A stretch of 26,000 bases of DNA from Labilithrix sp. (lineage in GTDB: Bacteria > Myxococcota > Polyangia > Polyangiales > Polyangiaceae). Under the pieces are notes generated by a model, which was not told the origin of the DNA, searched no databases, and saw only the letters and a list, made by a program, of their open reading frames with translations. The translations under genes and the position numbers were made by a program. Of this stretch, positions 4,462 to 19,903 are shown piece by piece. Position 1 is the first letter of the stretch. The number at the start of each line of letters is the position of its first letter. The stretch spans positions 1-26,000 of the forward strand of contig JAQBQL010000071.1 in NCBI GenBank assembly GCA_028287035.1, given 5' to 3'.

Positions 4462-4468
4462 AGCAGCG

Positions 4469-5914
4469 GTGGCACGGATCCTCCTGGTCGATGACAGCGC
4501 CAGCGCACGCGCGCTGATCGGGGTCCGCCTTCGTGAGCAGGGACACCACGTCATCGAGCTCGCGTCGGGGGCCGAGGCCGCGGAGCTCGCGCTCGCCGAG
4601 CCCTCCGACGCGGTGGTGACCGACCTCTGGATGTCCCCCATCTCGGGCCTGCAGCTGTGCCGGCTGCTGCGCGCCTCGGCGGTCACCGCGTCGACGCCCG
4701 TGGTGCTCCTCACCGCCTCCGACGACCGCCGCAATCGCTTCTGGGCGAAGCATGCGGGGGCGAGCGCGTACGTGACGAAGACCGAGATCGATCGCCTGAT
4801 CGACGTGCTCGACGACCTCACCTCCTCGCCGCCCACGCGGCCGCCGCCGTCGCCCGTCTCGGCCCCGCAGGTGGCGACGCGCGGGAACGTGCAGGAGCGC
4901 CTCTCGCAGCTGCTCGACGACTCGCTGTTCGAGTCGACGATCGCCGGCGAGGTGCGCGCGCTCTCCCAGAAGGCCGAGGAGCTCGAGCAGCTCTTCGAGG
5001 CGCTGTGCGCGCTCGCCTCGGACGTGGCCGGCTACCGCTGGCTCGCGCTCTCCACCGACTCCGCGCCGGCGCCCCAGACGAAGTACGCGACGCGCCTCTT
5101 CCTCCACACGCATCCGGACTGCCGCGAGGGAGCGGAGCGCGAGGCCCGCGAGGCGCTCGCCATCGCCCCGCCGCCCGAGCGCCGGAAGCCCGACGAGGGC
5201 GACGCGGTGGTCATCACCGACAAGCGCGCCGCGCATGCCGACTTCTCGTCGTCGCCGATCATCGAGCCGGTGCGCTTCGGCAGCCAGGGCATCGGCAGCC
5301 TGGCGCTCGCCCCGGCGCGGCGCGGCGCCTCCGTCGAGGACAAGCGGCTCGTCTCGATCATCGCGAAGGAGCTAGGCGGGCCGCTGCGCATGGCGGCGCT
5401 CGTCGCCGAGGCCCGGCGCCTCGCCTCGACCGACACGCTGACCGGCCTCCTGAACCGGCGCGCGCTCGTCGAGCGCATCGACAAGGCGCGTGCCGCCAGC
5501 GAAAAGCAGCTCTTTCCGATGAGCGTGCTCCTGCTCGACGTCGACCACTTCAAGAAGGTCAACGACACGATCGGTCACGACGCGGGCGACGCGGTGCTCC
5601 AGGGCGTCGCGAAGGTGCTCCTCGGGATCGCGCGGAAGAGTGACTTCGTCGCGCGGTGGGGCGGCGAGGAGTTCGTCCTGGTGCTGTCGTCGACCGCCGA
5701 GGCCGGGGCCCGCGTCGCCGCCGAGCGCGTGCGCCGCGCCATCGCCGACGCCCGCTATCCGCTGCCGAACGGGAGCGAGCACCGGGCGACCGCGTCAGTG
5801 GGGCTCGCGAGCGCCGAGGGCGTCGGCTGGGACCTGCACGATCTGCTGAGCCGCGCGGACAAGGCGATGTACTCGGCGAAGCACCGCGGCCGGAATCGCG
5901 TCGAGATCGCCTGA
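4469..5914 (+). CDS. Response regulator diguanylate cyclase (REC-GAF-like-GGDEF)
   Basis: This 481-aa cytoplasmic protein has three parts. Residues 1-115 form a receiver domain with acidic pocket Asp8/Asp9, phospho-acceptor Asp52 (VVTDLW), Thr82 and Lys104. Residues about 150-310 look like a GAF-type sensor. Residues about 320-481 form a GGDEF domain. The active-site motif is GGEEF (398-402), so it should make cyclic di-GMP from GTP. An RxxD inhibitory site (RKSD, 389-392) sits exactly five residues upstream, so product feedback inhibition is expected. Phosphorylation at Asp52 by an unknown histidine kinase would set activity, as in PleD-like enzymes. The start is GTG 4469, supported by the TAGTCT hexamer placing the mRNA 5' end next to it. 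It diverges from the fatty-acid run and converges on the next lipoprotein gene. Confidence 0.95.
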   Translation: MARILLVDDSASARALIGVRLREQGHHVIELASGAEAAELALAEPSDAVVTDLWMSPISGLQLCRLLRASAVTASTPVVLLTASDDRRNRFWAKHAGASAYVTKTEIDRLIDVLDDLTSSPPTRPPPSPVSAPQVATRGNVQERLSQLLDDSLFESTIAGEVRALSQKAEELEQLFEALCALASDVAGYRWLALSTDSAPAPQTKYATRLFLHTHPDCREGAEREAREALAIAPPPERRKPDEGDAVVITDKRAAHADFSSSPIIEPVRFGSQGIGSLALAPARRGASVEDKRLVSIIAKELGGPLRMAALVAEARRLASTDTLTGLLNRRALVERIDKARAASEKQLFPMSVLLLDVDHFKKVNDTIGHDAGDAVLQGVAKVLLGIARKSDFVARWGGEEFVLVLSSTAEAGARVAAERVRRAIADARYPLPNGSEHRATASVGLASAEGVGWDLHDLLSRADKAMYSAKHRGRNRVEIA

Positions 5915-5927
5915 GCGCGCCGGGCCC

Positions 5928-6950
5928 TCACGGGCATGTGACAGGAGCCTCGCCGGCGCACGCTTTGATCGGCGGCGCGGCCGGCGCGTGGCCGCCGATC
6001 GTGACTGGCACGAAGGTCGCCCCGACGGCGAACGAGAGCGCGTCGCAGGCCGCGCCCTTTCCGTCGAGCGTGGGCAGCGCGGGGACGTCGAGGGCCGCGC
6101 ACGTCTGCTGCTTCAACCCCGGGAACGCAGCACTGCCCTGGCAGATGCCGAGCGCGCCGAGCTGCTCGAAGATGCGCGGCGCCGTGATGCGGCCGACGAG
6201 CTGCGCCCCGGTGAGGACGAGGCCCTTGTCGCCCACCTTCGCGATCCGGCCGACGAGCTTCGATGCGCTCAGCGGGATGGTCACGATCGTGGTGGGCTGC
6301 GCGGCCTCGGCGCCGGTCGGGACCACGAGCCGCAGGTCGAGGTCGAACGTCGCGACGAGCAGCCCGCCCGCGACGTAGGCCGACGTGTCGAAGACCCTCG
6401 CGCCGAGATCCTGTGACGTGAGGAGCGATGCGTCGTCGACGAGGAACGCGCCGTCCTGGATGCCCGCGACGTTGTACGCCGACACCTTCACATCCGCGTC
6501 GTCCGGCTTGCCATCCCAGTCCTGCACGCGGAGCACGAGCCCGAACTGGCCGGTGTCGAGGGCGCTCTGCACGCGGCCGTCGGCGTCGGGCGGGAAGAGC
6601 AGGCCCAGGATCTTGCCGCCGGCGTTGTCGATGCCGGTGCTCGGCACGTCGCACTGCTGGTCGGTCGCGGCGACGTTCGTGCACGCGCGCTTCTCGGGAC
6701 AGGTGCAGAGACCGTCGAGGTCGTAGCCGAGCGGCGCGCCGCCGGCGGCCGCCAGGAAGCGCAGCTCGCTCATCGCGCCGACGAGCTCGCCCCCTGCCGT
6801 GACGGGTCCGCCGCTCGGACGCGCGGGGACGCGCTTTCCGCACGCCTTGTCCTCGTGGAAGCCGTCGTAGCTCACGAAGAGCGAGCACGCGCCGGTCGCC
6901 AGCGCCGCCGCCGCCATGGCGCTGACGGCGAACGCGTGCCAGGCCCTCAT
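5928..6950 (-). CDS. Predicted lipoprotein of unknown function
   Basis: From ATG 6950 this encodes about 340 residues beginning with a signal peptide (MRAWHAFAVSAMAAAALATG) and a Cys in ATGACS that fits lipid attachment loosely. I chose this start over an in-frame ATG at 6998 because the earlier one puts 16 polar residues before the signal peptide and runs up to the divergent gene. The mature part has scattered Cys pairs (LCTCPEKRAC, near residues 80-90, plus later single Cys) suggesting disulphides outside the cytoplasm, and alternating beta-type segments. I do not recognise a domain. It stands alone, converging on the diguanylate cyclase gene with a 13-bp gap and diverging from the FHA regulator. 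A TACGCT hexamer at 6966-6961 predicts a very short leader. Confidence 0.75.
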   Translation of the reverse strand: MRAWHAFAVSAMAAAALATGACSLFVSYDGFHEDKACGKRVPARPSGGPVTAGGELVGAMSELRFLAAAGGAPLGYDLDGLCTCPEKRACTNVAATDQQCDVPSTGIDNAGGKILGLLFPPDADGRVQSALDTGQFGLVLRVQDWDGKPDDADVKVSAYNVAGIQDGAFLVDDASLLTSQDLGARVFDTSAYVAGGLLVATFDLDLRLVVPTGAEAAQPTTIVTIPLSASKLVGRIAKVGDKGLVLTGAQLVGRITAPRIFEQLGALGICQGSAAFPGLKQQTCAALDVPALPTLDGKGAACDALSFAVGATFVPVTIGGHAPAAPPIKACAGEAPVTCP

Positions 6951-6960
6951 CCTGGCGGAG

Positions 6961-6966
6961 AGCGTA
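6961..6966 (-). promoter_or_regulatory. Predicted -10 (TACGCT) for the lipoprotein gene
   Basis: TACGCT on the minus strand would start transcription near 6954, four bases before the ATG at 6950. No clear Shine-Dalgarno lies upstream of that ATG, consistent with a nearly leaderless mRNA. The -35 is not evident. Confidence 0.35.
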
Positions 6967-6985
6967 CCAGAGACGTGCGCGGTGG

Positions 6986-6991
6986 TATCGT
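6986..6991 (+). promoter_or_regulatory. Predicted -10 (TATCGT) for the FHA regulator gene
   Basis: TATCGT places a start near 6998, three bases before ATG 7001. It lies back to back with the minus-strand TACGCT, so the two genes have separate, closely spaced divergent promoters. Weak by itself; it gains weight from the same spacing seen at other genes in the window. Confidence 0.35.
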
Positions 6992-7000
6992 GGGCCATCC

Positions 7001-8335
7001 ATGATGAAGAAGCCCGGCGAGGAAGGGCTCGCGACCATCGCGGAGCGTGCGCCCGAGCCCAGCGGTCCGGCGCCGATGTTCGTGCTCCGCGTGATGACCG
7101 GCAAGGACGCGGGCAAGACGCACGTGCTCGACTGGAACCAGACGCCCAAGGTCCACGTCGGCAAGAGCCCGCTCTGCGAGCTGCCCCTCGGCGACCTCCG
7201 CGTCTCGCGCCGGCACCTCGCGCTCGCGCCGTCCGGTCACCGGGTGCGCGTGACCGACCTCGACTCGACGAACGGCACGCGCATCGGCGGCGTCCGGATG
7301 ATCGACGCGCTCTGCGAGGGCGGGGAGGTCATCGAGATCGGCGACACGACCCTCAAGATCGTGAGCGCGGGACGCCTTCCCGCGGTGACGGCGCCGCCCC
7401 AGTACGCGTTCGGTCGCGTGCTCGGCCAGAGCGAGGGGATGCAGCGCCTCTTCGCGCTCGCCGCGAAGCTGAGCGTGTCGGGGCTGCCGCTGCTCATCGA
7501 GGGCGACACCGGCACCGGCAAGGAGCTCCTCGCGGAGGCCATCCACGAGAACGGCCCGCGGGCGGCCTTCGCGATGGTCGTGCACGACGCGAGCGCCTTC
7601 TCCGGCGAGGACGAGCTCGTCGCGCTGTTCGGACGCGCGGGTCAGCCCGGCGCCATCGAGCTCGCCAACGGCGGCACGCTCGTCATCGACGAGGCCTCGG
7701 CGCTCGGCGACGCGGCCCAGCAGCGCCTCGCGGCGTTCGTCGAGCGCGGCGTGCTCCAGCGCATCGGCGAGTCCCAGGCCTTCCGCACCGACGTGCGCAT
7801 CATCGCGACGTCGCGGCGCGACCTCGAGCGGCTCGTCCAGGAGGGCGTGTTCCGGGAGGAGCTGCTCTACCGGCTCGCCGGAGCCCGCATCGAGCTGCCG
7901 CCGCTCCGCGAGCGCGAGGGCGACCTCGACCTCCTCGCCCGACACTTCTGGTCCCTCTACGGAGGCGCCGGCGACCTGCCGCGCACGTTCGCCATGACGC
8001 TGGGCCAGCACGCCTGGCCCGGCAACGTGCGCGAGCTCGAGCACGCGGTGGCGCGGCGCATCTCGGTGGGCGACGAGCTCTCGGCGATGGTCCGGCCTTC
8101 GTCGGCGCCGCGGGCGGCCGCGGGCCGCGGGGAACAGGACTTCCTCGACGCGATCCTCGAGCTCGATCTCGCCATGCCCACCGCCCGGCAGAAGGTCATC
8201 GACGAGTTCGAGGAGCGGTACGTCACCCGGGCCGTCGCGCAGCACGGCGGCAACGTCTCGCGCGCGGCCGCCGCCTCGGGGCTGACGCGCCGCTACTTCC
8301 ACATGCTCCGGTCGAAGGCGCGCGATCGGCGCTGA
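7001..8335 (+). CDS. FHA-AAA+-Fis transcriptional regulator, enhancer-binding-protein-like but lacking GAFTGA
   Basis: This 444-aa protein has an N-terminal FHA domain (about 27-123) with the phosphothreonine-binding residues visible: GKSPLC, LRVSRRH (68-72) and DLDSTNGT (86-93). A central AAA+ domain (about 138-355) of the sigma-54 activator type follows, with Walker A GDTGTGKE (168-175), Walker B GGTLVIDE (224-231), an FREELLYR arginine region and WPGNVRELEH. The C-terminus is a Fis-type helix-turn-helix (NVSRAAAASGLTRRYFHML). The GAFTGA loop that contacts sigma-54 should lie between Walker A and B, but residues 209-219 read LFGRAGQPGAI and the motif is absent. It therefore may not activate sigma-54 RNA polymerase in the usual way. 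The Ser/Thr kinase gene lies 90 bp downstream and could supply the phosphothreonine signal read by the FHA domain. The start could also be the adjacent ATG at 7004. Confidence 0.93.
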   Translation: MMKKPGEEGLATIAERAPEPSGPAPMFVLRVMTGKDAGKTHVLDWNQTPKVHVGKSPLCELPLGDLRVSRRHLALAPSGHRVRVTDLDSTNGTRIGGVRMIDALCEGGEVIEIGDTTLKIVSAGRLPAVTAPPQYAFGRVLGQSEGMQRLFALAAKLSVSGLPLLIEGDTGTGKELLAEAIHENGPRAAFAMVVHDASAFSGEDELVALFGRAGQPGAIELANGGTLVIDEASALGDAAQQRLAAFVERGVLQRIGESQAFRTDVRIIATSRRDLERLVQEGVFREELLYRLAGARIELPPLREREGDLDLLARHFWSLYGGAGDLPRTFAMTLGQHAWPGNVRELEHAVARRISVGDELSAMVRPSSAPRAAAGRGEQDFLDAILELDLAMPTARQKVIDEFEERYVTRAVAQHGGNVSRAAAASGLTRRYFHMLRSKARDRR

Positions 8336-8413
8336 CGCTGGCGCCGGGGTAGCCGCGGGTGCGCAGGCGGCGAGGCCTCGCGCGGCGGCGCCGCGACGGA
8401 GGGCCCTGCGTGC

Positions 8414-8419
8414 TAGATT
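8414..8419 (+). promoter_or_regulatory. Predicted -10 (TAGATT) for the kinase gene, leaderless start
   Basis: TAGATT ends exactly seven bases before the GTG at 8426, so the predicted first transcribed base is the first base of the start codon. No Shine-Dalgarno-like sequence is present between them. This supports the GTG start of the kinase and predicts a leaderless mRNA independent of the upstream regulator. Confidence 0.5.
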
Positions 8420-8425
8420 TCGGGC

Positions 8426-9928
8426 GTGACTCCGTCACGCGTGCACGGCCCGTATGCGCTCTACGACGCCCTGCAGGCGCTCGGGTCGGGCGCGGCCGCC
8501 TCGGTGCACCTCGGCGTGGCCCGCGGAGCGACGACGTTGCCGGTCGCGATCAAGCGCCTTCATGCCGGGCAGGCGCGTCAGCCGGCAGCGGTCGCGCGCC
8601 TCCTCGACGAGGTGCGCCTCACGAAGAACATCGTGCATCCCAACGTGGTGCGCACGATCGACTTCGTGTCGGACGGCGAGGAGATGCTCGCCATCATGGA
8701 GTACGTGCACGGCGAGCCGCTGTCGCGCCTCCTCGGGGACGCGTCCGAGCACCGGCAGCCCATCCCCGTGCCGATCGCGGCGCGCATCGCCATCGACGTG
8801 CTCTGCGGTCTCGCCGCCGCGCACCAGGCGACCGACGCGGAGGGCCGCCCGCTCCTCCTCGTGCACCGCGACGTCACGCCCGAGAACATCCTGGTCGGTG
8901 CCGACGGGATGGCCCGCCTCATGGACTTCGGGGTCGCCAAGGCCGAGGGCCGCCTCCACGCGACGCACGACGGCGGCGTCCGCGGCAAGCTCGCGTACCT
9001 CGCGCCCGAGCAGATCGGCGGCGAGGTCTCGCCGCGCACCGACCTCTATGCGGTCGGCCTCGTGCTCTGGGAGATGCTCGTCGGCGTTCGCGCGATCACC
9101 GGCGAGAACGAGGGCGAGCTGCTCGTGCGCGCGCTCGATCCGCACGTGCCGCCGGCGAGCCATGCGCGCCCCGACGTTCCCCCGCTGCTCGACGCCGCCA
9201 TCGCGCGCGCGCTCGCCAAGGAGCCCGAGCACCGGTTCGCGAGCGCCACCGAGCAGGCCGAGGCCTTCCAGCGCGCGGCCGTGCTCGTCGCGAACGCCGA
9301 GGACGTGAGCGCCTGGGTCGGCGTTCATGGCGGAGCGCGCCTCGCGCTGCGGGCCGAGAACGTCAATGCGATGCTCGCCGCCGAGCACGGGGCGATCGCC
9401 CACGGGGCGCTCCTTGCCACCGCGCCCCCGGGCAGCTCGGTGGGCCGGCTGGTCGTGCCGGACGGCGCGTTCGATCCCGCGGCGTCCTATCCTTCGTACG
9501 GCGGCGCGCCGCTGCCCGCCGAGATCGAGGAAGAGGCGGAGCGCCCCGCGCTGCTCGGCCTCGCGATGATGGTGGCGGCGGCCCTGCTCGTCCTCGGGCT
9601 CGGCCTCATGTGGCGCGCGCGGAGCGAGCCGGCGCCGCCCACGGAGGCGGAGCTCGGCGCGATGCCCGCGCCCCTCGTGACGACGGTGACGACGGCCGTC
9701 GTCGCCGCGCCTACCGCGACGATCCCCGACGCCATCCCCGCGAGCGCGCTGCCCGCCGCGGAGCCGACCGGCGTCTCGCTCGTCGCCGCGCCGACCGGGG
9801 CGAGGCGGCCCGGCAACGCGGGGAGCGTCCCGACGACCAAGCGCGCCACGGCGCGGGCGAGCTGCGACCCTCCGTGGACGCTCGATGCGAACGGGATCCG
9901 CCGCTACGACCCGGCCTGCGTGAAATGA
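8426..9928 (+). CDS. Transmembrane Ser/Thr protein kinase (Hanks type)
   Basis: This 500-aa protein has an N-terminal cytoplasmic kinase domain (about 8-285) with all key motifs: Gly-rich loop LGSGAAASVHLG, Lys43 in VAIK, HRDVTPEN with catalytic Asp149 and Asn154, DFGVAK with Asp167, and LAPEQ. A juxtamembrane region follows. One transmembrane helix (about 376-396, LLGLAMMVAAALLVLGLGLMW) leads to an extracytoplasmic tail rich in Ala/Pro/Thr that ends in a small Cys-bracketed motif (CDPPWTLDANG, Cys480 to Cys498). I recall similar C-terminal motifs on other myxobacterial kinases, but cannot search here. The stop overlaps the next gene's ATG (ATGA), so the two are translationally coupled and the tail may work with that envelope protein. 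Likely outputs include the adjacent FHA regulator. Start is GTG 8426. Confidence 0.96.
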   Translation: MTPSRVHGPYALYDALQALGSGAAASVHLGVARGATTLPVAIKRLHAGQARQPAAVARLLDEVRLTKNIVHPNVVRTIDFVSDGEEMLAIMEYVHGEPLSRLLGDASEHRQPIPVPIAARIAIDVLCGLAAAHQATDAEGRPLLLVHRDVTPENILVGADGMARLMDFGVAKAEGRLHATHDGGVRGKLAYLAPEQIGGEVSPRTDLYAVGLVLWEMLVGVRAITGENEGELLVRALDPHVPPASHARPDVPPLLDAAIARALAKEPEHRFASATEQAEAFQRAAVLVANAEDVSAWVGVHGGARLALRAENVNAMLAAEHGAIAHGALLATAPPGSSVGRLVVPDGAFDPAASYPSYGGAPLPAEIEEEAERPALLGLAMMVAAALLVLGLGLMWRARSEPAPPTEAELGAMPAPLVTTVTTAVVAAPTATIPDAIPASALPAAEPTGVSLVAAPTGARRPGNAGSVPTTKRATARASCDPPWTLDANGIRRYDPACVK

Positions 9929-13335: not shown

Positions 13336-14730
13336 TCAGCCCTTCTTCTTCGCGTTGGCCTTCGCCTTGGCCTTCACGATCGCGAGGGCGAGGAAGCCCG
13401 CGCCGAGGCCCATCCAGGCGGTGCCGGAGCGGGTCGGAGCGGTCGGGGACGTCGAGCACGAGAACGACTCACCGTTCGCGCTGGTGCGTGCGGCCGCCTC
13501 GCTGCGCGGCGCGGTGCCGACCGTGTCGCAGCCGTTGTACACGGGGCACTGCGGCTCGTTCAGCTCCTGCGTCACCTGGCGGATGTTGGAGAGGAGCGAC
13601 TGGTCGGCCGAGGCGGTGACCACGAGATCGGCGTTGAGCGCCGCGTGCGCGAGGTCGGAGCGGAGCCGGGTGATGCGCGCGGTCGAGGCGGGCACGCCGT
13701 AGAAGAGGGTCGCGAGGTCCTCCTCGCGCACCTGCTCGGCGGTCTTCGTGATGTTGCCGTCGGCGTCCTTCACGGGCAGGTAGGAGTCGTTCGCGGAGTC
13801 CGCGCCGCCGTAGCCGAACTTCACGCCGTACTCGACCTGCGACGGGCTCTGGAGCGTGGAGCTCTCGACCTCCCAGCCGCGGCCGGCGGAGGCGAGCGTG
13901 CGCTCGGCGCGGAGCTCGGTGTAGTTGCTCTTCGACTGCGTCCAGTCCCAGGTCAGCTCCTCGGCCTTGATCTGGAAGGTCGGGAAGTTCTGCGCCTCGT
14001 AGCGGCCCTCGCCGACGACCCACAGCGAGATGCCGACCACCGGGCCGGTGCCGGCGGCGACCATGCGGAGCGGGAGCACCGCGTTCGCGCCCTTGGTCGT
14101 GACGCGCACCGGGCGCATGTCCGTGACGTTCTTGCCGGGGATCAGCCTGAGGGCGAGGAAGTCGAAGTGCTCGGCCACGTACTGGTTCACGACCGGCTGC
14201 ACGTCGGCTGGGACGTTGAAGTTGTTCGTCGCGAGCCACGTCTGGAGGGCGTTCGCGTCCGTCGCCTTCAGCTGCACGGTCTCGTAGGGACCGACCGTCT
14301 CCTGCTTGATGATCGTGACGCCGGCATCCGCGACGCCGTCCGACGCGGACGTCGGAGCGCCGCCGAAGCCGCCGCGGTTGCAGGACGGCCCGGCCGGGCA
14401 GTTGAGCGGCGGCGAGACGATCGACGTCTGTGTGAGGCTGTCGAGGGTCTGGAAGACCGCGTTCGAGCTGAGCCCGACGTCGACCGAGCCGGAGATGGGG
14501 AGCACCCAGGCGAAGGAGGAGGGGCTGCCCGAGTACTTGATCTGGTCGTAGAGCGTCGACTGATCCTTGGCGATCGTCAGGATCATCCGGTGGTCGGTGA
14601 CGACCGTCGGGTTCTCGGACGGGGGTGAGAAGCAGCCGCCGCAAGCGCTCGCGTCGCGCTCGAAGGCGCCGAACGCGGAAGCCACCGTCAGCGCGGACAG
14701 GAGAGCAGTGATGGTTGCACGGGATCGCAT
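13336..14730 (-). CDS. DUF2330 family secreted/surface protein
   Basis: This 464-aa protein has a signal peptide ending at ASA, directly followed by CGGCFSPPSE (Cys30 and Cys33), the characteristic start of DUF2330 proteins. The VVTDHRMILTI and SSFAWVLPI segments that follow also fit that family. The biochemical function of DUF2330 is not known to me. More Cys pairs occur later (near residues 110-118 and in the CPVYNGCDT segment). The C-terminus has Cys425, a hydrophobic helix (about 437-452, MGLGAGFLALAIVK) and a Lys-rich tail (KAKAKANAKKKG), a layout that resembles a C-terminal cell-surface sorting signal such as MYXO-CTERM, though not a textbook match. It heads a five-gene minus-strand run and has a near-consensus sigma-54 site just upstream. 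Confidence 0.9.
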   Translation of the reverse strand: MRSRATITALLSALTVASAFGAFERDASACGGCFSPPSENPTVVTDHRMILTIAKDQSTLYDQIKYSGSPSSFAWVLPISGSVDVGLSSNAVFQTLDSLTQTSIVSPPLNCPAGPSCNRGGFGGAPTSASDGVADAGVTIIKQETVGPYETVQLKATDANALQTWLATNNFNVPADVQPVVNQYVAEHFDFLALRLIPGKNVTDMRPVRVTTKGANAVLPLRMVAAGTGPVVGISLWVVGEGRYEAQNFPTFQIKAEELTWDWTQSKSNYTELRAERTLASAGRGWEVESSTLQSPSQVEYGVKFGYGGADSANDSYLPVKDADGNITKTAEQVREEDLATLFYGVPASTARITRLRSDLAHAALNADLVVTASADQSLLSNIRQVTQELNEPQCPVYNGCDTVGTAPRSEAAARTSANGESFSCSTSPTAPTRSGTAWMGLGAGFLALAIVKAKAKANAKKKG

Positions 14731-14994: not shown

Positions 14995-16464
14995 CTAGCC
15001 CGGCACGCTCGGGCGCGGCAAGAAAAAGGAGGGCCGCAGGGCGGCCGCGACGAGGAGGCAGAGCACCGGGGTCGCCACCACGTGGTAGCGGTCCTCGCCG
15101 AAGAAGATGGCGTGCGTGAGGACCGTGCTCGCGAGGAGCGTCGCGGCCATGAGCAGCGCCGGCGGCGCGGCGGGACGGCCCGGCAGAGGCAGGAACGGCA
15201 GGACGCTCGACGCGACCGCGATCGGCCAGAACGTCGGGCTGCCGGCGTCGAACGCGAGCCATGCGGCGACCACCGCGACGACGAGGAGGACGCCCTGCAC
15301 GATCCGCCCCGCGCGCCGGTCACCCGCGGCGCCCGCCGCACGACGTGCCAACGGCCACGCGACGAACGCGAGCGGCGATGCCGCGAGCAGGAGGCGATGA
15401 AGGAACGTGAGCGCGCCCCGCCAGCGGACGCGGCGCTCCTCGGGCCACGCCGCGGGCCGGGCCTCGTGGAGGTACTCGACCGCGAACGACTCGTGATCGA
15501 ACGTGAAGGCGAGCTTGGCCGGCACGAGCGACAGCCAGCGGCGCGGCGCGGCCTTCACGCTGGCGATCCCGTAGTCGAGCCAGCAGCGATCCTGCTGGAC
15601 CTGGCCGGTGACGTCGCGGCAGCCGTCCTCGGAGCGGAGCGTCTCGAAGCGGCCCGTCGCGCGCGGGAACGCGCCGATCGCGAGGTTCCAGCCGGCGTTG
15701 GTGCTGACGAGCGCGCAGCCGTCCATCACCGCGCAGTTCCGTGCCGTCCACGGAAGCACCGGGAGGAGCGTGGCCGCGCACGCGACGACCACCGCGATCG
15801 CGTACCGGCCGGCGCGCGCGACGCGCGGCTCGCGCTCACGATGCGCCACCGCGAGCGCGAGGAACGGCGCGCAGAGGAGAGCCTGCGGCCGGACCAGCAC
15901 GCCGAGGCCGAGCACGACGCCGCCGAGCGCGATGCCCCGGAGCGCCGAGCCGCGCGCGCGCGCCGTGAAGAGCGCGACCCAGAACGCCGCCAGCACGAGC
16001 AGCGCCGACAGCGGCTCCGTCATGAGCAACGCCCCGTAGAGGACGAGGCCGGGATGAACCGCGACGAGCGCCCCGGCCACCATCGCGCGGATGGGCGACA
16101 GCGCCTCGCGCGCGAGCAGCCACGTCACCACCGCGAGGAGCGCGCCGACGAGCGCATTGGCCGCCGCCGCGACGCCGTGCGTCGCCCCGAAGAGCCGGTA
16201 GAACAGCCCGAGGAACGCGCTGTAGCCGACCGGGTAGTGACACCACGGATGCCAGACGGCGTGCCCGTCGCGCATCACCTCGTCTGCGTACCCGAGCCCG
16301 CTCGCCAGGTGACGCGCGCCGAAGTCGTAGTAGTGACCGTCCCACACGGGCTCGCCGGCGAGCAGGCGCGCCGCCACGAGCCGGACCGCGAACGCGACGA
16401 CGAACAGCGCGACGCCGAAGACCGCCGTGCCCCGGCGGGCCGGCTCGGCGGCCCCCGCGCTCAC
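14995..16464 (-). CDS. Multi-pass GT-C glycosyltransferase (ArnT/PMT-like, GT39/GT83-type)
   Basis: This 489-aa integral membrane protein has about ten or more hydrophobic helices. After the first helix comes an extracytoplasmic loop with VWDGHYYDFG (Asp42, Asp47) and HPWCHYPVGYSAFLGLFYRLFG, the layout of lipid-linked-sugar transferases of the GT-C fold in which an early-loop Asp is catalytic. Near the C-terminus, FFGEDRYHVVATPVL resembles the family's conserved Arg/Tyr motif. Such enzymes move a sugar from a polyprenyl-phosphate donor to lipid A, protein or another acceptor in the envelope; the acceptor here is unknown. The start is GTG 16464, overlapping the TGA of the MinD-like gene (GTGA), so it is translationally coupled to it. 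The open frame continues upstream to 17661, but that part is antisense-frame noise within the MinD-like gene. Confidence 0.85.
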   Translation of the reverse strand: MSAGAAEPARRGTAVFGVALFVVAFAVRLVAARLLAGEPVWDGHYYDFGARHLASGLGYADEVMRDGHAVWHPWCHYPVGYSAFLGLFYRLFGATHGVAAAANALVGALLAVVTWLLAREALSPIRAMVAGALVAVHPGLVLYGALLMTEPLSALLVLAAFWVALFTARARGSALRGIALGGVVLGLGVLVRPQALLCAPFLALAVAHREREPRVARAGRYAIAVVVACAATLLPVLPWTARNCAVMDGCALVSTNAGWNLAIGAFPRATGRFETLRSEDGCRDVTGQVQQDRCWLDYGIASVKAAPRRWLSLVPAKLAFTFDHESFAVEYLHEARPAAWPEERRVRWRGALTFLHRLLLAASPLAFVAWPLARRAAGAAGDRRAGRIVQGVLLVVAVVAAWLAFDAGSPTFWPIAVASSVLPFLPLPGRPAAPPALLMAATLLASTVLTHAIFFGEDRYHVVATPVLCLLVAAALRPSFFLPRPSVPG

Positions 16465-18029
16465 GACACGTTCTTCTCGCGCATGCGACGCAGGTACGTG
16501 CGCTGGACGTGCGCCGGATCGAGCCGCAGGTACTTCGCGACCTCGGTGACGAAGCCGCGCACGTAGACGATGGCCGGGAGGTCGCCGTACGACTCCTCCT
16601 CGAGCGCCGCGAGGTGGGACTTCGAGATCTTCGTGCGCGAGCTGATCTCGCCGAGCTCGATGCCCTGCGACTCGCGCACCTTGCGGAGCAGCGGGCCGGT
16701 GAACTCGGTGTCGGGGCCGATCTCGCGTGCGAGCTCGCTCTGCAGCATCAGCTGCTCGGCGGCGAGCGCGGGCCGCGCGATCATGCTCGAGATCGCCGGC
16801 TCGTCGGCGTCCGGGAACATGGAGAGGTCGTAGGCGCGGCGGCGCACCGGATCGAGCAACGTGTCGTGCGCCTCCTCGATGCGCGCCTGCGACGCCTCGA
16901 GCTCCGCGTCGCCGACGAGCGAGGTCGTCGCGAGCCCGCCCGTCGCGTAGACCTCGCGCTGCCGCTTGTACGCGCGGCGGATCTCCTCGTCGTTCGAGGA
17001 GCGTCCGACGCCGAGCACCACGTAGTAGTCGGGGGCGCCTTCCGGGAGCGGCGGAGCGACGTGCACGATCTCCTGGCGAGCCGCGGTGAGCGCGACCACG
17101 CGGCGCGCGATGCGCTCGATGTTGCGCGCCGCCTTGGAGGTGGGGCTGTCGACGAGGAGCGGCTTCTTGCGGCGGACCGAGAGCCACACGGTGTCGTCGT
17201 TCTCGACCCAGCCGAGCTCGTCGAGCGCGATGCCGTAGTGGCGCAGGCACAGGGCGCTCATCGAGGTCGGCAGCTCGAGGTCGGTGCGCACGCGCGTCTG
17301 GTTGACGGCGAGGTAGAGGTGCATCCGCTTCGCCTCGGCCCACGCGAGCTCGGCGAGGCCGCGGTCGATCTTGGTGAGCGCCCGGATCAGCTCGAGGGGC
17401 GCGGGAAGACGCCCGATCTCCTTGATGGCGCGGTCGACGAGGCCGAGGCGGAAGCGGTCCCGGATGAGCGAACGACGGAGCCGGCGGCGGTAGGCGGCGC
17501 GCACGAAGCGGTACGTCGCCTCGATGGCGGGCGGCTCCGGCACGGTCACGCAGATCGCGAAGTCGGCGGCGAGCATCACGTCGAGCGCGAGGTGCGCGTG
17601 CCCCGGCCCCACGTCGACGACGAGGTAGTCGACGGGCAGCGACTTCAGGCGCGCGAGCCACCGGCTCTTCCGACCGGCGCGGAGCTGGAGGGGCGGCTCG
17701 ATCGCGTCGTGCGGGCCGGGCAGGATCGAGAGGCCGGGCACCGCGGTGGGCACGAGCGCCTTCATCAGCTCGTCGACGCTGCCGTCCAGCGAGATGGGCT
17801 GCGCGAGCGCCTGCACGCCGAACTGCACGTGCAGGTTGGCGCCCGTGGGGTCGATGTCGACGAGCGCCACGCTCTTGCCGAGCTGCGCGAAGTAGACGGC
17901 CAGGTTCTGCGCGATGAGGCTCTTGCCGACGCCGCCGCGGCCGCCGCCGATCGCGAGGAGCCGCCGGGCTCCGCGCACGCCTTCCAGGTGATCGAGCTCG
18001 ATCGAGGGCGGCGGAACGCTCTCCGTCAC
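16461..18029 (-). CDS. MinD-like ATPase fused to a J-like domain and a RodZ-type HTH
   Basis: This protein of about 522 residues has three modules. Residues 20-310 form a MinD/ParA-class P-loop ATPase: GGGRGGVGKS (28-37), DIDPTGANL (57-65), and VVDVGPGHAH (switch II, Asp138). The signature Lys of the deviant Walker A (KGGxGKS) is Arg31. Residues about 332-400 begin DYYVVLGVGRSSNDEEIRRAYK and end RRRAYD, clearly J-domain-like, but where HPD should stand the loop reads VYATGGLA. Residues about 445-505 form an HTH of the RodZ/HTH_25 type (RKVRESQGIELGEISSRTKI, then VYVRGFVTEVAKYL). There is no transmembrane helix. MinD-type ATPases usually position something at the pole, membrane or nucleoid. 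The start GTG 18029 overlaps the response-regulator stop and its own stop overlaps the glycosyltransferase start, so the three are made together. Confidence 0.9.
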   Translation of the reverse strand: MTESVPPPSIELDHLEGVRGARRLLAIGGGRGGVGKSLIAQNLAVYFAQLGKSVALVDIDPTGANLHVQFGVQALAQPISLDGSVDELMKALVPTAVPGLSILPGPHDAIEPPLQLRAGRKSRWLARLKSLPVDYLVVDVGPGHAHLALDVMLAADFAICVTVPEPPAIEATYRFVRAAYRRRLRRSLIRDRFRLGLVDRAIKEIGRLPAPLELIRALTKIDRGLAELAWAEAKRMHLYLAVNQTRVRTDLELPTSMSALCLRHYGIALDELGWVENDDTVWLSVRRKKPLLVDSPTSKAARNIERIARRVVALTAARQEIVHVAPPLPEGAPDYYVVLGVGRSSNDEEIRRAYKRQREVYATGGLATTSLVGDAELEASQARIEEAHDTLLDPVRRRAYDLSMFPDADEPAISSMIARPALAAEQLMLQSELAREIGPDTEFTGPLLRKVRESQGIELGEISSRTKISKSHLAALEEESYGDLPAIVYVRGFVTEVAKYLRLDPAHVQRTYLRRMREKNVS

Positions 18030-18856
18030 GAGAGCCCGCCGCGTCGCGAGGTGGGCCCGGGGGCGATCGAGCCCGCCTTGGCGAGCCGCGCGCGGCGGAG
18101 GAGCCCGAAGATGCGCGCCGCCAGCTCGGGCGCGCGGAACGGCTTCGGCAGGAAGTCGTCGGCGCCGCTGGCGAAGGCGTCGACCACGTCGCGCGACGTG
18201 GGCTGCCCGCGGCCGCCGCCCAGGAAGAGCACGGGCAGGGGACCGCGCGGGCCCCGGTGCAGCGAGCGCACGAACTCGAGCGGCTCCATGCCGGGCGTGT
18301 GGAAGTCGAGGACGAGGGCGTCGAACGTCGCGTCGAGCACGCGCTGCTCGGCCTCGGCGGCGGTGCCGGCGACCTCCACGAACATGCCGATGTCGGTGAG
18401 CATCTGCCGGAGCTCTTCCCGCGCGGCGTCGTCGTCGTCGACGAGGAGGATGCGCGCGCCGAAGGGCAGCCGGCTCGACTCGACCACGCTGGACGGCGGG
18501 TTGTCGTTGTCCGAGAACCCGATCGCGGGCGTCACCGGCAGCGGGAGGCTTGCCGGCGCCGCCACCGGGCGCGCGGCGCGCATGTGCTCGCTGCGCGACT
18601 CGCTGCGGGCCGCGACGAACTGGAGGAGGCGGTCCCAGTCGCGGCGTTCGAACGCGACGTGCGGGTCACCGGCCGCGCAGACCGCCCGGGCCGCAGCCGC
18701 GGTGGCCCGCCGCTTCGAGCCGATCTCGAAGATCGCGAGGATCCACTCCCCGTCGGTGACGGTCTCGCCCTCGGGCAGCGCAAGCGACCCGCGCGCGTCC
18801 CCGAGCGCGGCGGAGAAGCGGGCGATGTCTTCGAAACGAAAGACGACGCTGCGCAA
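18026..18856 (-). CDS. Response regulator with atypical N-terminal domain
   Basis: From TTG 18856 this is 276 residues. The first about 95 (VVFRFEDIARFSAALG and a beta-rich stretch) are an unidentified domain that loosely recalls divergent PilZ-type domains in myxobacteria; this is not secure. A Pro/Ala linker follows. Residues about 134-255 form a receiver: RILLVDDDDAAREEL (acidic pocket), phospho-acceptor Asp184 in LVLDFHTPGM, and Lys238 in FLPKPF. The conserved Thr/Ser at the end of strand 4 is Gly (VLFLGGGRG), which may weaken phosphorylation-driven switching. I chose the TTG at 18856 because a TAGAGA hexamer puts the mRNA start four bases upstream; another TTG at 18895 would add 13 unlikely residues. 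It leads the coupled module with the MinD-like and glycosyltransferase genes. Confidence 0.85.
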   Translation of the reverse strand: MRSVVFRFEDIARFSAALGDARGSLALPEGETVTDGEWILAIFEIGSKRRATAAAARAVCAAGDPHVAFERRDWDRLLQFVAARSESRSEHMRAARPVAAPASLPLPVTPAIGFSDNDNPPSSVVESSRLPFGARILLVDDDDAAREELRQMLTDIGMFVEVAGTAAEAEQRVLDATFDALVLDFHTPGMEPLEFVRSLHRGPRGPLPVLFLGGGRGQPTSRDVVDAFASGADDFLPKPFRAPELAARIFGLLRRARLAKAGSIAPGPTSRRGGLS

Positions 18857-18946: not shown

Positions 18947-19903
18947 ATGGCTCTGAAAGCGCTAGTTGTCGGAATCGTTGGCTTTATCAGCCTCTCCCAG
19001 TCCATGTGTGGCAAGTCCACCACCGCCGAGGACCCGGCGAAGGACAAGCCCACGCCGGAGGTCGCGCTCGAGGGCGTGGACACGAGCGCGCTGACGCCGC
19101 GCGAGAAGAAGGAGTTCGGGACGTACGTCTCCGAGTTCCTCTCGCCGTGTCAGAACGTGCCGGTCAGCATCGCGCAGTGCATCCAGGAGAAGCGCGCGTG
19201 CGACCGTTGCCAGCCGGCCGCGAAGTACGTCCTGCGCGGCGTGAAGGACGGCATGACGCGGGATCAGGTCGAGAAGGCATACAAGGGGCGGTTCGATCCC
19301 TCCGGCGTGAAGAACGTCCCGATCGACGGCTCGCCCGTGCGCGGACCCGAGAGCGCGCCGGTCACGATCGTCGAGTTCGCCGATTTCGAGTGCCCGCACT
19401 GCGGCGAGGTCGCCCCGATCATCGACAAGGTGCTCGAGGCCCACAAGAACGAGGTGCGCTTCGCCTTCAAGTTCTACCCGCTCCCCAGCCATCCCCACGC
19501 CGAGATCGCGGCCCGCGCCGCCGCCGCGTCGATGGGCCAGGGCAAGTTCTGGGAGATGCACCACGCGCTCTTCACGAACCAGCGTCATCTCGAGCAGACC
19601 GACCTCGACAGCTACGCGAAGGAGCTCGGCATCGACGTGTCGCGCTTCCACGCCGACATGCAGTCGAACCAGACCTCGGACCGCATCGCCAAGGACAAGA
19701 AGCTCGGCGAGGACCTCATGATCGCCGGCACGCCGAGCATCTACATCAACGGCCGCGTGTACGACGGCCACCAGGAGCTCGGCGAGTGGGTGACCCAGGA
19801 GCTCGCCACGATCAAGGCAGGCGGCGGCTCGGCGCCGGCCCCCTCCGCATCGCCCTCGGCCGCTGCCTCCGCCTCCGCCGGCGGCCCCGCGCCGAAGAAG
19901 TGA
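18947..19903 (+). CDS. DsbA-like thioredoxin-fold protein with Cys-rich N-terminal module
   Basis: This 318-aa exported protein begins with a hydrophobic segment (MALKALVVGIVGFISLSQSM) followed by Cys21, which could be a signal peptide or a non-canonical lipoprotein anchor. Residues about 45-115 form a small Cys-rich helical module (SPCQNVPVSIAQC, ACDRCQPAAKYVL, then GMTRDQVEKAYKGRFD), whose tail resembles the CcmH-type helical hairpin. Residues about 120-290 form a DsbA-family thioredoxin fold with active site CPHC (Cys149, Cys152) and cis-Pro263 in AGTPSIYING. It should catalyse thiol-disulphide exchange in the periplasm. The last about 25 residues are a low-complexity Ala/Ser/Pro tail. The next gene starts one base after its stop, so they are probably co-translated, though an exonuclease partner is unexpected. 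The open frame extends upstream to 18257, but that part is not coding. Confidence 0.92.
   Translation: MALKALVVGIVGFISLSQSMCGKSTTAEDPAKDKPTPEVALEGVDTSALTPREKKEFGTYVSEFLSPCQNVPVSIAQCIQEKRACDRCQPAAKYVLRGVKDGMTRDQVEKAYKGRFDPSGVKNVPIDGSPVRGPESAPVTIVEFADFECPHCGEVAPIIDKVLEAHKNEVRFAFKFYPLPSHPHAEIAARAAAASMGQGKFWEMHHALFTNQRHLEQTDLDSYAKELGIDVSRFHADMQSNQTSDRIAKDKKLGEDLMIAGTPSIYINGRVYDGHQELGEWVTQELATIKAGGGSAPAPSASPSAAASASAGGPAPKK

Follow-up and report, generated by a model that had tools for sequence, protein, structure and literature searches.

A conserved gene pair of the Polyangiales encodes a MinD-J-RodZ-type fusion protein and a GT-C glycosyltransferase

The window analyzed here is a 26,000-nucleotide (nt) stretch of DNA from Labilithrix sp. 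(assembly GCA_028287035.1, contig JAQBQL010000071.1), and its central feature is a set of three genes that follow one another on the reverse strand, where all coordinates lie unless another strand is given. The first gene (18026..18856) encodes a response regulator (RR) with an N-terminal domain of about 130 amino acids (aa) and a receiver domain (residues 136 to 249, 18110..18451; Pfam PF00072 Response_reg, 62.7 bits). The second (16461..18029) encodes a 522-aa protein, here called MDJ, that joins a MinD/FleN-like NTPase domain (residues 22 to 318, 17076..17966; Pfam ParA, 57.6 bits), a J-like domain without the HPD motif (residues 334 to 401, 16827..17030; PF00226 DnaJ, 30.6 bits), and a RodZ-type helix-turn-helix (HTH) domain, HTH_25 (residues 447 to 508, 16506..16691; PF13413, 71.4 bits). 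The third (14995..16464) encodes a 489-aa GT-C membrane glycosyltransferase (GT) of the ArnT fold (Pfam PMT_2, 45.8 bits). A preliminary description of the window, made from the sequence alone, had named these domains, the three open reading frames (ORFs), and two GTGA stop-start overlaps between them, and the Pfam matches, the sequence, and the translations bear all of this out. At 18026..18029, the TGA stop of RR lies inside GTGA (18029-18026) and the GTG start of MDJ occupies the same four bases; at 16461..16464, the MDJ stop and the GT start are arranged in the same way (GTGA, 16464-16461). The RR start, TTG at 18856, is supported by related proteins whose alignment begins at that residue, in one case with Met. 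The nearest named relatives of the locus are Labilithrix metagenome-assembled genomes (MAGs).

Four-nucleotide NTGA overlaps are ordinary junctions in compact operons, and a single pair of them is therefore weak evidence; in particular, the overlaps alone allow no inference of the fixed order and ratio of translation that the preliminary description had read from them. What exceeds chance is the conservation of a junction across relatives rather than the overlaps as such, and a chance overlap was rejected for MDJ and GT because their junction is conserved. MDJ homologs numbered 1677 among the 7996 candidates scored. The patterns GGGRGG[VA]GK and [RK]PALAAEQL, which partly select for Arg at the signature position and for the P-loop Lys discussed below, retrieved 70 loci from named genomes; 69 were true relatives, and one (L070, a Paraburkholderia J domain) was dropped. 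Three loci that end inside MDJ (L062, L065, and L068) were left out of the adjacency count, and in 62 of the remaining 66, which have an intact MDJ end, GT lies directly behind MDJ on the same strand. The start of GT allows a 4-nt overlap in 27 of these 62 relatives, an 8-nt overlap in 10, and a 1-nt overlap in 1; a gap of 0 to 30 nt separates the genes in 19, and 5 junctions are of another kind or were not classed. GT is absent behind MDJ in the other four loci, three of which have an ortholog-level GT elsewhere in the genome, and the two genes are unlinked in genomes G199, G200, and G202.

A profile search of 188 Myxococcota genomes, which is free of the pattern bias, gave the same picture. 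GT was present in all 14 genomes with a strong MDJ match (>700 bits), and in all 16 genomes with an ortholog-level GT (at least 399 bits, a cutoff that we set; the next matches score 334 bits and below) this gene adjoined the 3' side of MDJ; in one of these (G131), only an N-terminal GT fragment (231 bits) lies behind MDJ and the rest is on another contig. The MDJ and GT protein trees are largely congruent. The conserved unit is thus the MDJ-GT pair, which in the survey of relatives is conserved, co-inherited, and often overlapping, and not the triplet. We label the GT-linked group Polyangiales; it includes Labilithrix, Polyangium, Sorangium, Minicystis, and others.

The preliminary description had expected the whole triplet to be conserved among relatives, and this expectation failed. 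RR was found upstream of MDJ in 17 of the 69 loci, 66 of which have at least 600 bases of upstream DNA, and this count may miss diverged RR genes that score under the tblastn threshold. Sixteen of the RR-bearing loci have 59 to 86% MDJ identity and one (L026) has 55%; the start of MDJ allows a 4-nt overlap with RR in 12 of the 17. Because the pair is conserved and RR was detected in these loci only, a conserved RR-MDJ-GT triplet was rejected, and the triplet is a lineage-specific extension of the pair. The phospho-Asp of RR is missing in two relatives (L019 and L026). Where relatives show a three-residue gap and usually L[ST], the receiver of the window has FLGGGRGQP, and an insertion thus stands in place of the customary phospho-switch Ser/Thr.

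The N-terminal part of MDJ is FleN/FlhG/BcsQ-like and belongs to the MinD-type fold. Its Walker A motif departs from the deviant form with the signature Lys (KGGxxK[S/T]): residues 31 to 37 (17919..17939) read RGGVGKS, with Arg in place of that Lys. The signature Lys is lost in every readable GT-linked copy (Arg in 59, Cys in 1, and Ser in 1 of 61), whereas all 61 retain the P-loop Lys and Asp60, and 21 have lost the Walker B Asp139. Among the 16 GT-linked copies of the Myxococcota sample, the signature position is Arg in 14, Cys in 1, and Ser in 1, and the P-loop Lys is kept in 15. The remaining copy (L171, genome G123) has Ala instead; its P-loop reads TGGRGGAGAS, with both Lys residues gone, and is close to the BcsQ pattern. 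Loci L071 to L080 overlap genomes already sampled and were dropped from the ATPase-residue and HTH-residue counts, and six MDJs of the Arg type were scored as fused without GT in the ATPase-residue count (L026, L052, L056, L059, L015, and L041), the last two because their short GT matches fall below 200 bits. Table 1 of PMC9178275 gives Arg at the signature position of BcsQ (RGGVGTT) and Ser at that of McdA. Given the loss of the signature Lys and the general retention of the P-loop Lys, and by comparison with BcsQ and McdA, most MDJs probably bind ATP; it is doubtful that hydrolysis drives them through a canonical cycle, and they may plausibly act as assembly partners.

These residues also bear on the proposal, made in the preliminary description, that MDJ is a spatial ATPase that controls the placement of surface glycosylation, for example at a pole. 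Membership in the MinD family stands; the sense of a MinD/ParA oscillator is weakened by the loss of the signature Lys, the Walker B losses, and the lack of a membrane-targeting helix, as inspection by eye showed none in the stretch that links the MinD part to the J domain, nor at the end of the split MinD proteins described below. A Min-type oscillator is unsupported. McdA type 1 proteins are known for positioning carboxysomes. They are nonetheless reported to lack the signature Lys (PMC8262871), and BcsQ is described as polar in E. coli (PMC5727187); together with the MinD-family fold of MDJ, these precedents would suit a switch of the MinD/ParA type, driven by phosphorylation, that puts the glycosyltransferase at a pole. 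We consider such a switch very improbable, since the signature Lys is gone from all GT-linked copies read, the Walker B Asp from 21 of the 61 and the P-loop Lys from one, no membrane-targeting tail is apparent by eye, RR was found in a minority of relatives, and nothing in the sequence points to a pole. Placement of glycosylation there is unsupported, its one pointer being the analogy with E. coli BcsQ.

A general flagellar role of the FlhG kind was rejected as well. Of 14 genomes with MDJ, 8 gave a flagellin (Flagellin_N) match and 6 gave none; several of these 6 are draft MAGs, and the flagellin-less genomes include a complete Minicystis genome and a complete Sorangium chromosome. MDJ further differs from FleN/FlhG in having lost the signature Lys and gained the J-like and HTH domains.

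The J-like domain of the window lacks the HPD motif, and the 137 loci with a J match include just three that have it (L131, L132, and the unrelated L070); an Hsp70 cochaperone function was rejected on this ground. The best PDB match of the C-terminal domain of MDJ is Thermotoga maritima RodZ (2wus_R, E = 7.1e-5), whose HTH is reported to bind MreB (PMC3599482; PMC13327600), and in E. coli RodZ, replacement of F60 by Ala is reported to decrease the interaction with MreB (PMC6946637). MDJ Tyr489, which aligns with F60, is conserved as Tyr across 124 of 124 sequences, and all 124 have Phe or Tyr at position 493 (Phe in the window). Both residues (within 16506..16691) lie at the RodZ helix that binds MreB. 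Strong MreB matches were present in 14 of 14 genomes tested. MDJ thus shares with RodZ the HTH_25 domain and the conserved MreB-contact aromatic and differs in being fused to MinD and J domains and in lacking a transmembrane-like stretch in or around the HTH: after residue 320, no 19-residue Kyte-Doolittle window exceeds 0.9, and the highest value in the protein (1.78) belongs to a window that begins at residue 145, within the MinD fold. In 8 of 8 genomes examined, another, separate protein combines HTH_25 with a transmembrane-like stretch.

An HTH domain could also mean that MDJ is a regulator, either a FleN-like ATP-dependent antiactivator or a DNA-binding regulator of envelope genes, that acts on DNA through this C-terminal domain, with RR and GT as its co-regulated targets. 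The domain, however, is of the RodZ type by both its HTH_25 score and its best PDB match, and the Pfam matches show no FleQ-like activator among the products of the three genes, so that we regard a regulatory function as unlikely.

Homologs from other lineages suggest where MDJ came from. We fetched a further 20 loci whose matches were long and 40 whose matches were mostly split. In the first set, all but L100, which is split, encode the fusion in a single ORF, and GT lies behind MDJ in two of these 19 fusions (L083 and L084). In the 40 split-match loci, MinD and J-HTH are separate adjacent genes except in L131 and L132, which yielded J-HTH alone, and in L137, which is cut short by the end of the contig. 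Most of the split MinD proteins carry the canonical GGGKGGVGK motif. In other lineages, fusions that have no GT beside them (L081 to L099) keep the signature Lys in 17 of 17 cases and have lost the P-loop Lys in 9, which makes these nine apparent pseudo-ATPases. The split module (L101 to L140) looks ancestral and occurs in many Myxococcota with recurrent neighbors; in the annotated loci these carry SelA, pseudouridine synthase, Cu-oxidase_4, Rho, and RF-1 domains. We take the Cu-oxidase_4 neighbor to be PgeF-like, and a gene that, judged by its sequence, probably encodes an HNH endonuclease stands next to the split pair. On this sequence evidence MDJ predates its pairing with GT, and the simplest history would be an old two-gene module that fused and was then joined by GT in the Polyangiales and a sister lineage.

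The same history raises the question of whether MDJ and GT share anything beyond transcription. MDJ may keep an older housekeeping role, for instance with RodZ and MreB in cell shape, next to an unrelated GT that has been cotranscribed with it since the ancestor of the group, with shared expression and no shared mechanism. The age of MDJ relative to the GT linkage, the recurrent neighbors of the split form, and the genomes in which the two genes are unlinked all favor such a passive association. It is opposed by the persistence of adjacency (62 of 66 loci, and 16 of 16 in the Myxococcota sample) through varying junction types, by the congruence of the two trees, and by the loss in GT-linked copies of a signature Lys that the non-GT fusions of other lineages all retain. 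On balance, we judge it somewhat unlikely.

GT itself has the ArnT/PMT GT-C fold. Its motif WDGHYY (residues 41 to 46, 16327..16344) falls in the predicted first extracytoplasmic loop; Asp42, which follows the first helix in the model, is present in 60 of 60 aligned GTs and is the probable catalytic residue by comparison with ArnT/PMT, presumably equivalent to the catalytic Asp of ArnT. Low identity (15%), four invariant Cys residues in the aligned GTs, and the linkage to MDJ set GT apart from ArnT and the protein O-mannosyltransferases. Many of the same genomes (G003, G006, G009, G045, G049, G069, G083, G101, G114, and G174) also have a second, more distant GT-C relative (about 285 to 334 bits) that is not beside MDJ.

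Direct observation extends to the genes, their coupling and co-inheritance, the predicted folds, and the residues conserved or lost. A MinD-RodZ-like fusion encoded beside a membrane sugar transferase suggests in addition that the fusion steers or assembles the enzyme, and we tentatively favor, at somewhat less than an even chance, a reading in which MDJ, in the manner of BcsQ, helps to assemble or position GT as a transferase of lipid-linked sugars, and may itself be docked on MreB. The functional unit would then be MDJ plus GT. GT, in the inner membrane, would move a putative sugar from a polyprenyl-phosphate carrier to a putative acceptor on the periplasmic side. MDJ would be its cytoplasmic, probably ATP-binding partner, acting as BcsQ does for cellulose synthase, and would help to assemble, stabilize, or place GT through a presumed contact. 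The RodZ-type HTH may dock MDJ on MreB or on a membrane-anchored RodZ-like protein, and such docking would let GT work where the cell elongates; RR, where present, would add a phospho-input. A bolder version, which we think improbable, makes MDJ a soluble MinD-fused RodZ-type adaptor that couples the transferase to MreB filaments, and deposition of a periplasmic or surface glycan would then keep step with elongation. This would be a second client arm of the elongasome, born when two older adjacent genes fused, with the signature Lys given up as GT joined.

The closest known parallel is BcsQ/BcsA of E. coli-type Bcs systems, where, as here, a MinD-like partner is encoded with a glycosyltransferase. 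MDJ differs from BcsQ in mostly keeping the P-loop Lys, which BcsQ lacks, in its J-like and RodZ-type domains, and in its partner, a GT-C enzyme rather than a processive synthase of the BcsA type; it also scores below the BcsQ family model (TIGR03371, 56.3 bits against a cutoff of 157.85). McdA type 1 differs from MDJ in domain architecture and in partner. Literature searches, whose listings covered open-access full text, brought up no described MinD-J-HTH protein and no link of the MinD family to GT-C transferases or to RodZ-type domains.

Several observations weigh against our favored reading of MDJ as an assembly or positioning factor for GT. Because the Walker B Asp is lost in 21 of the 61 copies and the P-loop Lys in L171, ATP binding by GT-linked MDJs may not be general. 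The HTH aromatics are also kept in J-HTH proteins without GT, so that their conservation bears on MDJ and not on the pair, and they may serve folding rather than MreB binding. No GT adjoins 17 of the 19 fused loci from other lineages or any of the split loci fetched, and the first job of MDJ was therefore something else. Finally, L056, a member of the GT-linked group, combines MDJ with only a paralog-level GT match (279 bits).

The known partners of MinD-family proteins are membrane machines such as flagella and cellulose synthase. If our reading is correct, MDJ and GT would constitute a simple two-gene system for testing how bacteria place glycosylation along the cell body, and natural intermediates (split, fused, without the signature Lys, and without the P-loop Lys) trace its evolution.

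Other genes of the window surround the operon. Divergent from it, at 18947-19903 on the forward strand, is a gene for a DsbA-like thioredoxin protein with a lipoprotein-like signal (seen by eye), and 31 of the 61 relatives whose upstream DNA is long enough also have a divergent DsbA-like gene. Downstream of GT, at 13336-14730 on the reverse strand, a DUF2330 protein is encoded, as it is in several close relatives. Farther away, at 4463-9928 on the forward strand, signaling genes stand in a row and encode a receiver-GGDEF protein, an FHA-sigma54 activator, and a Ser/Thr kinase.
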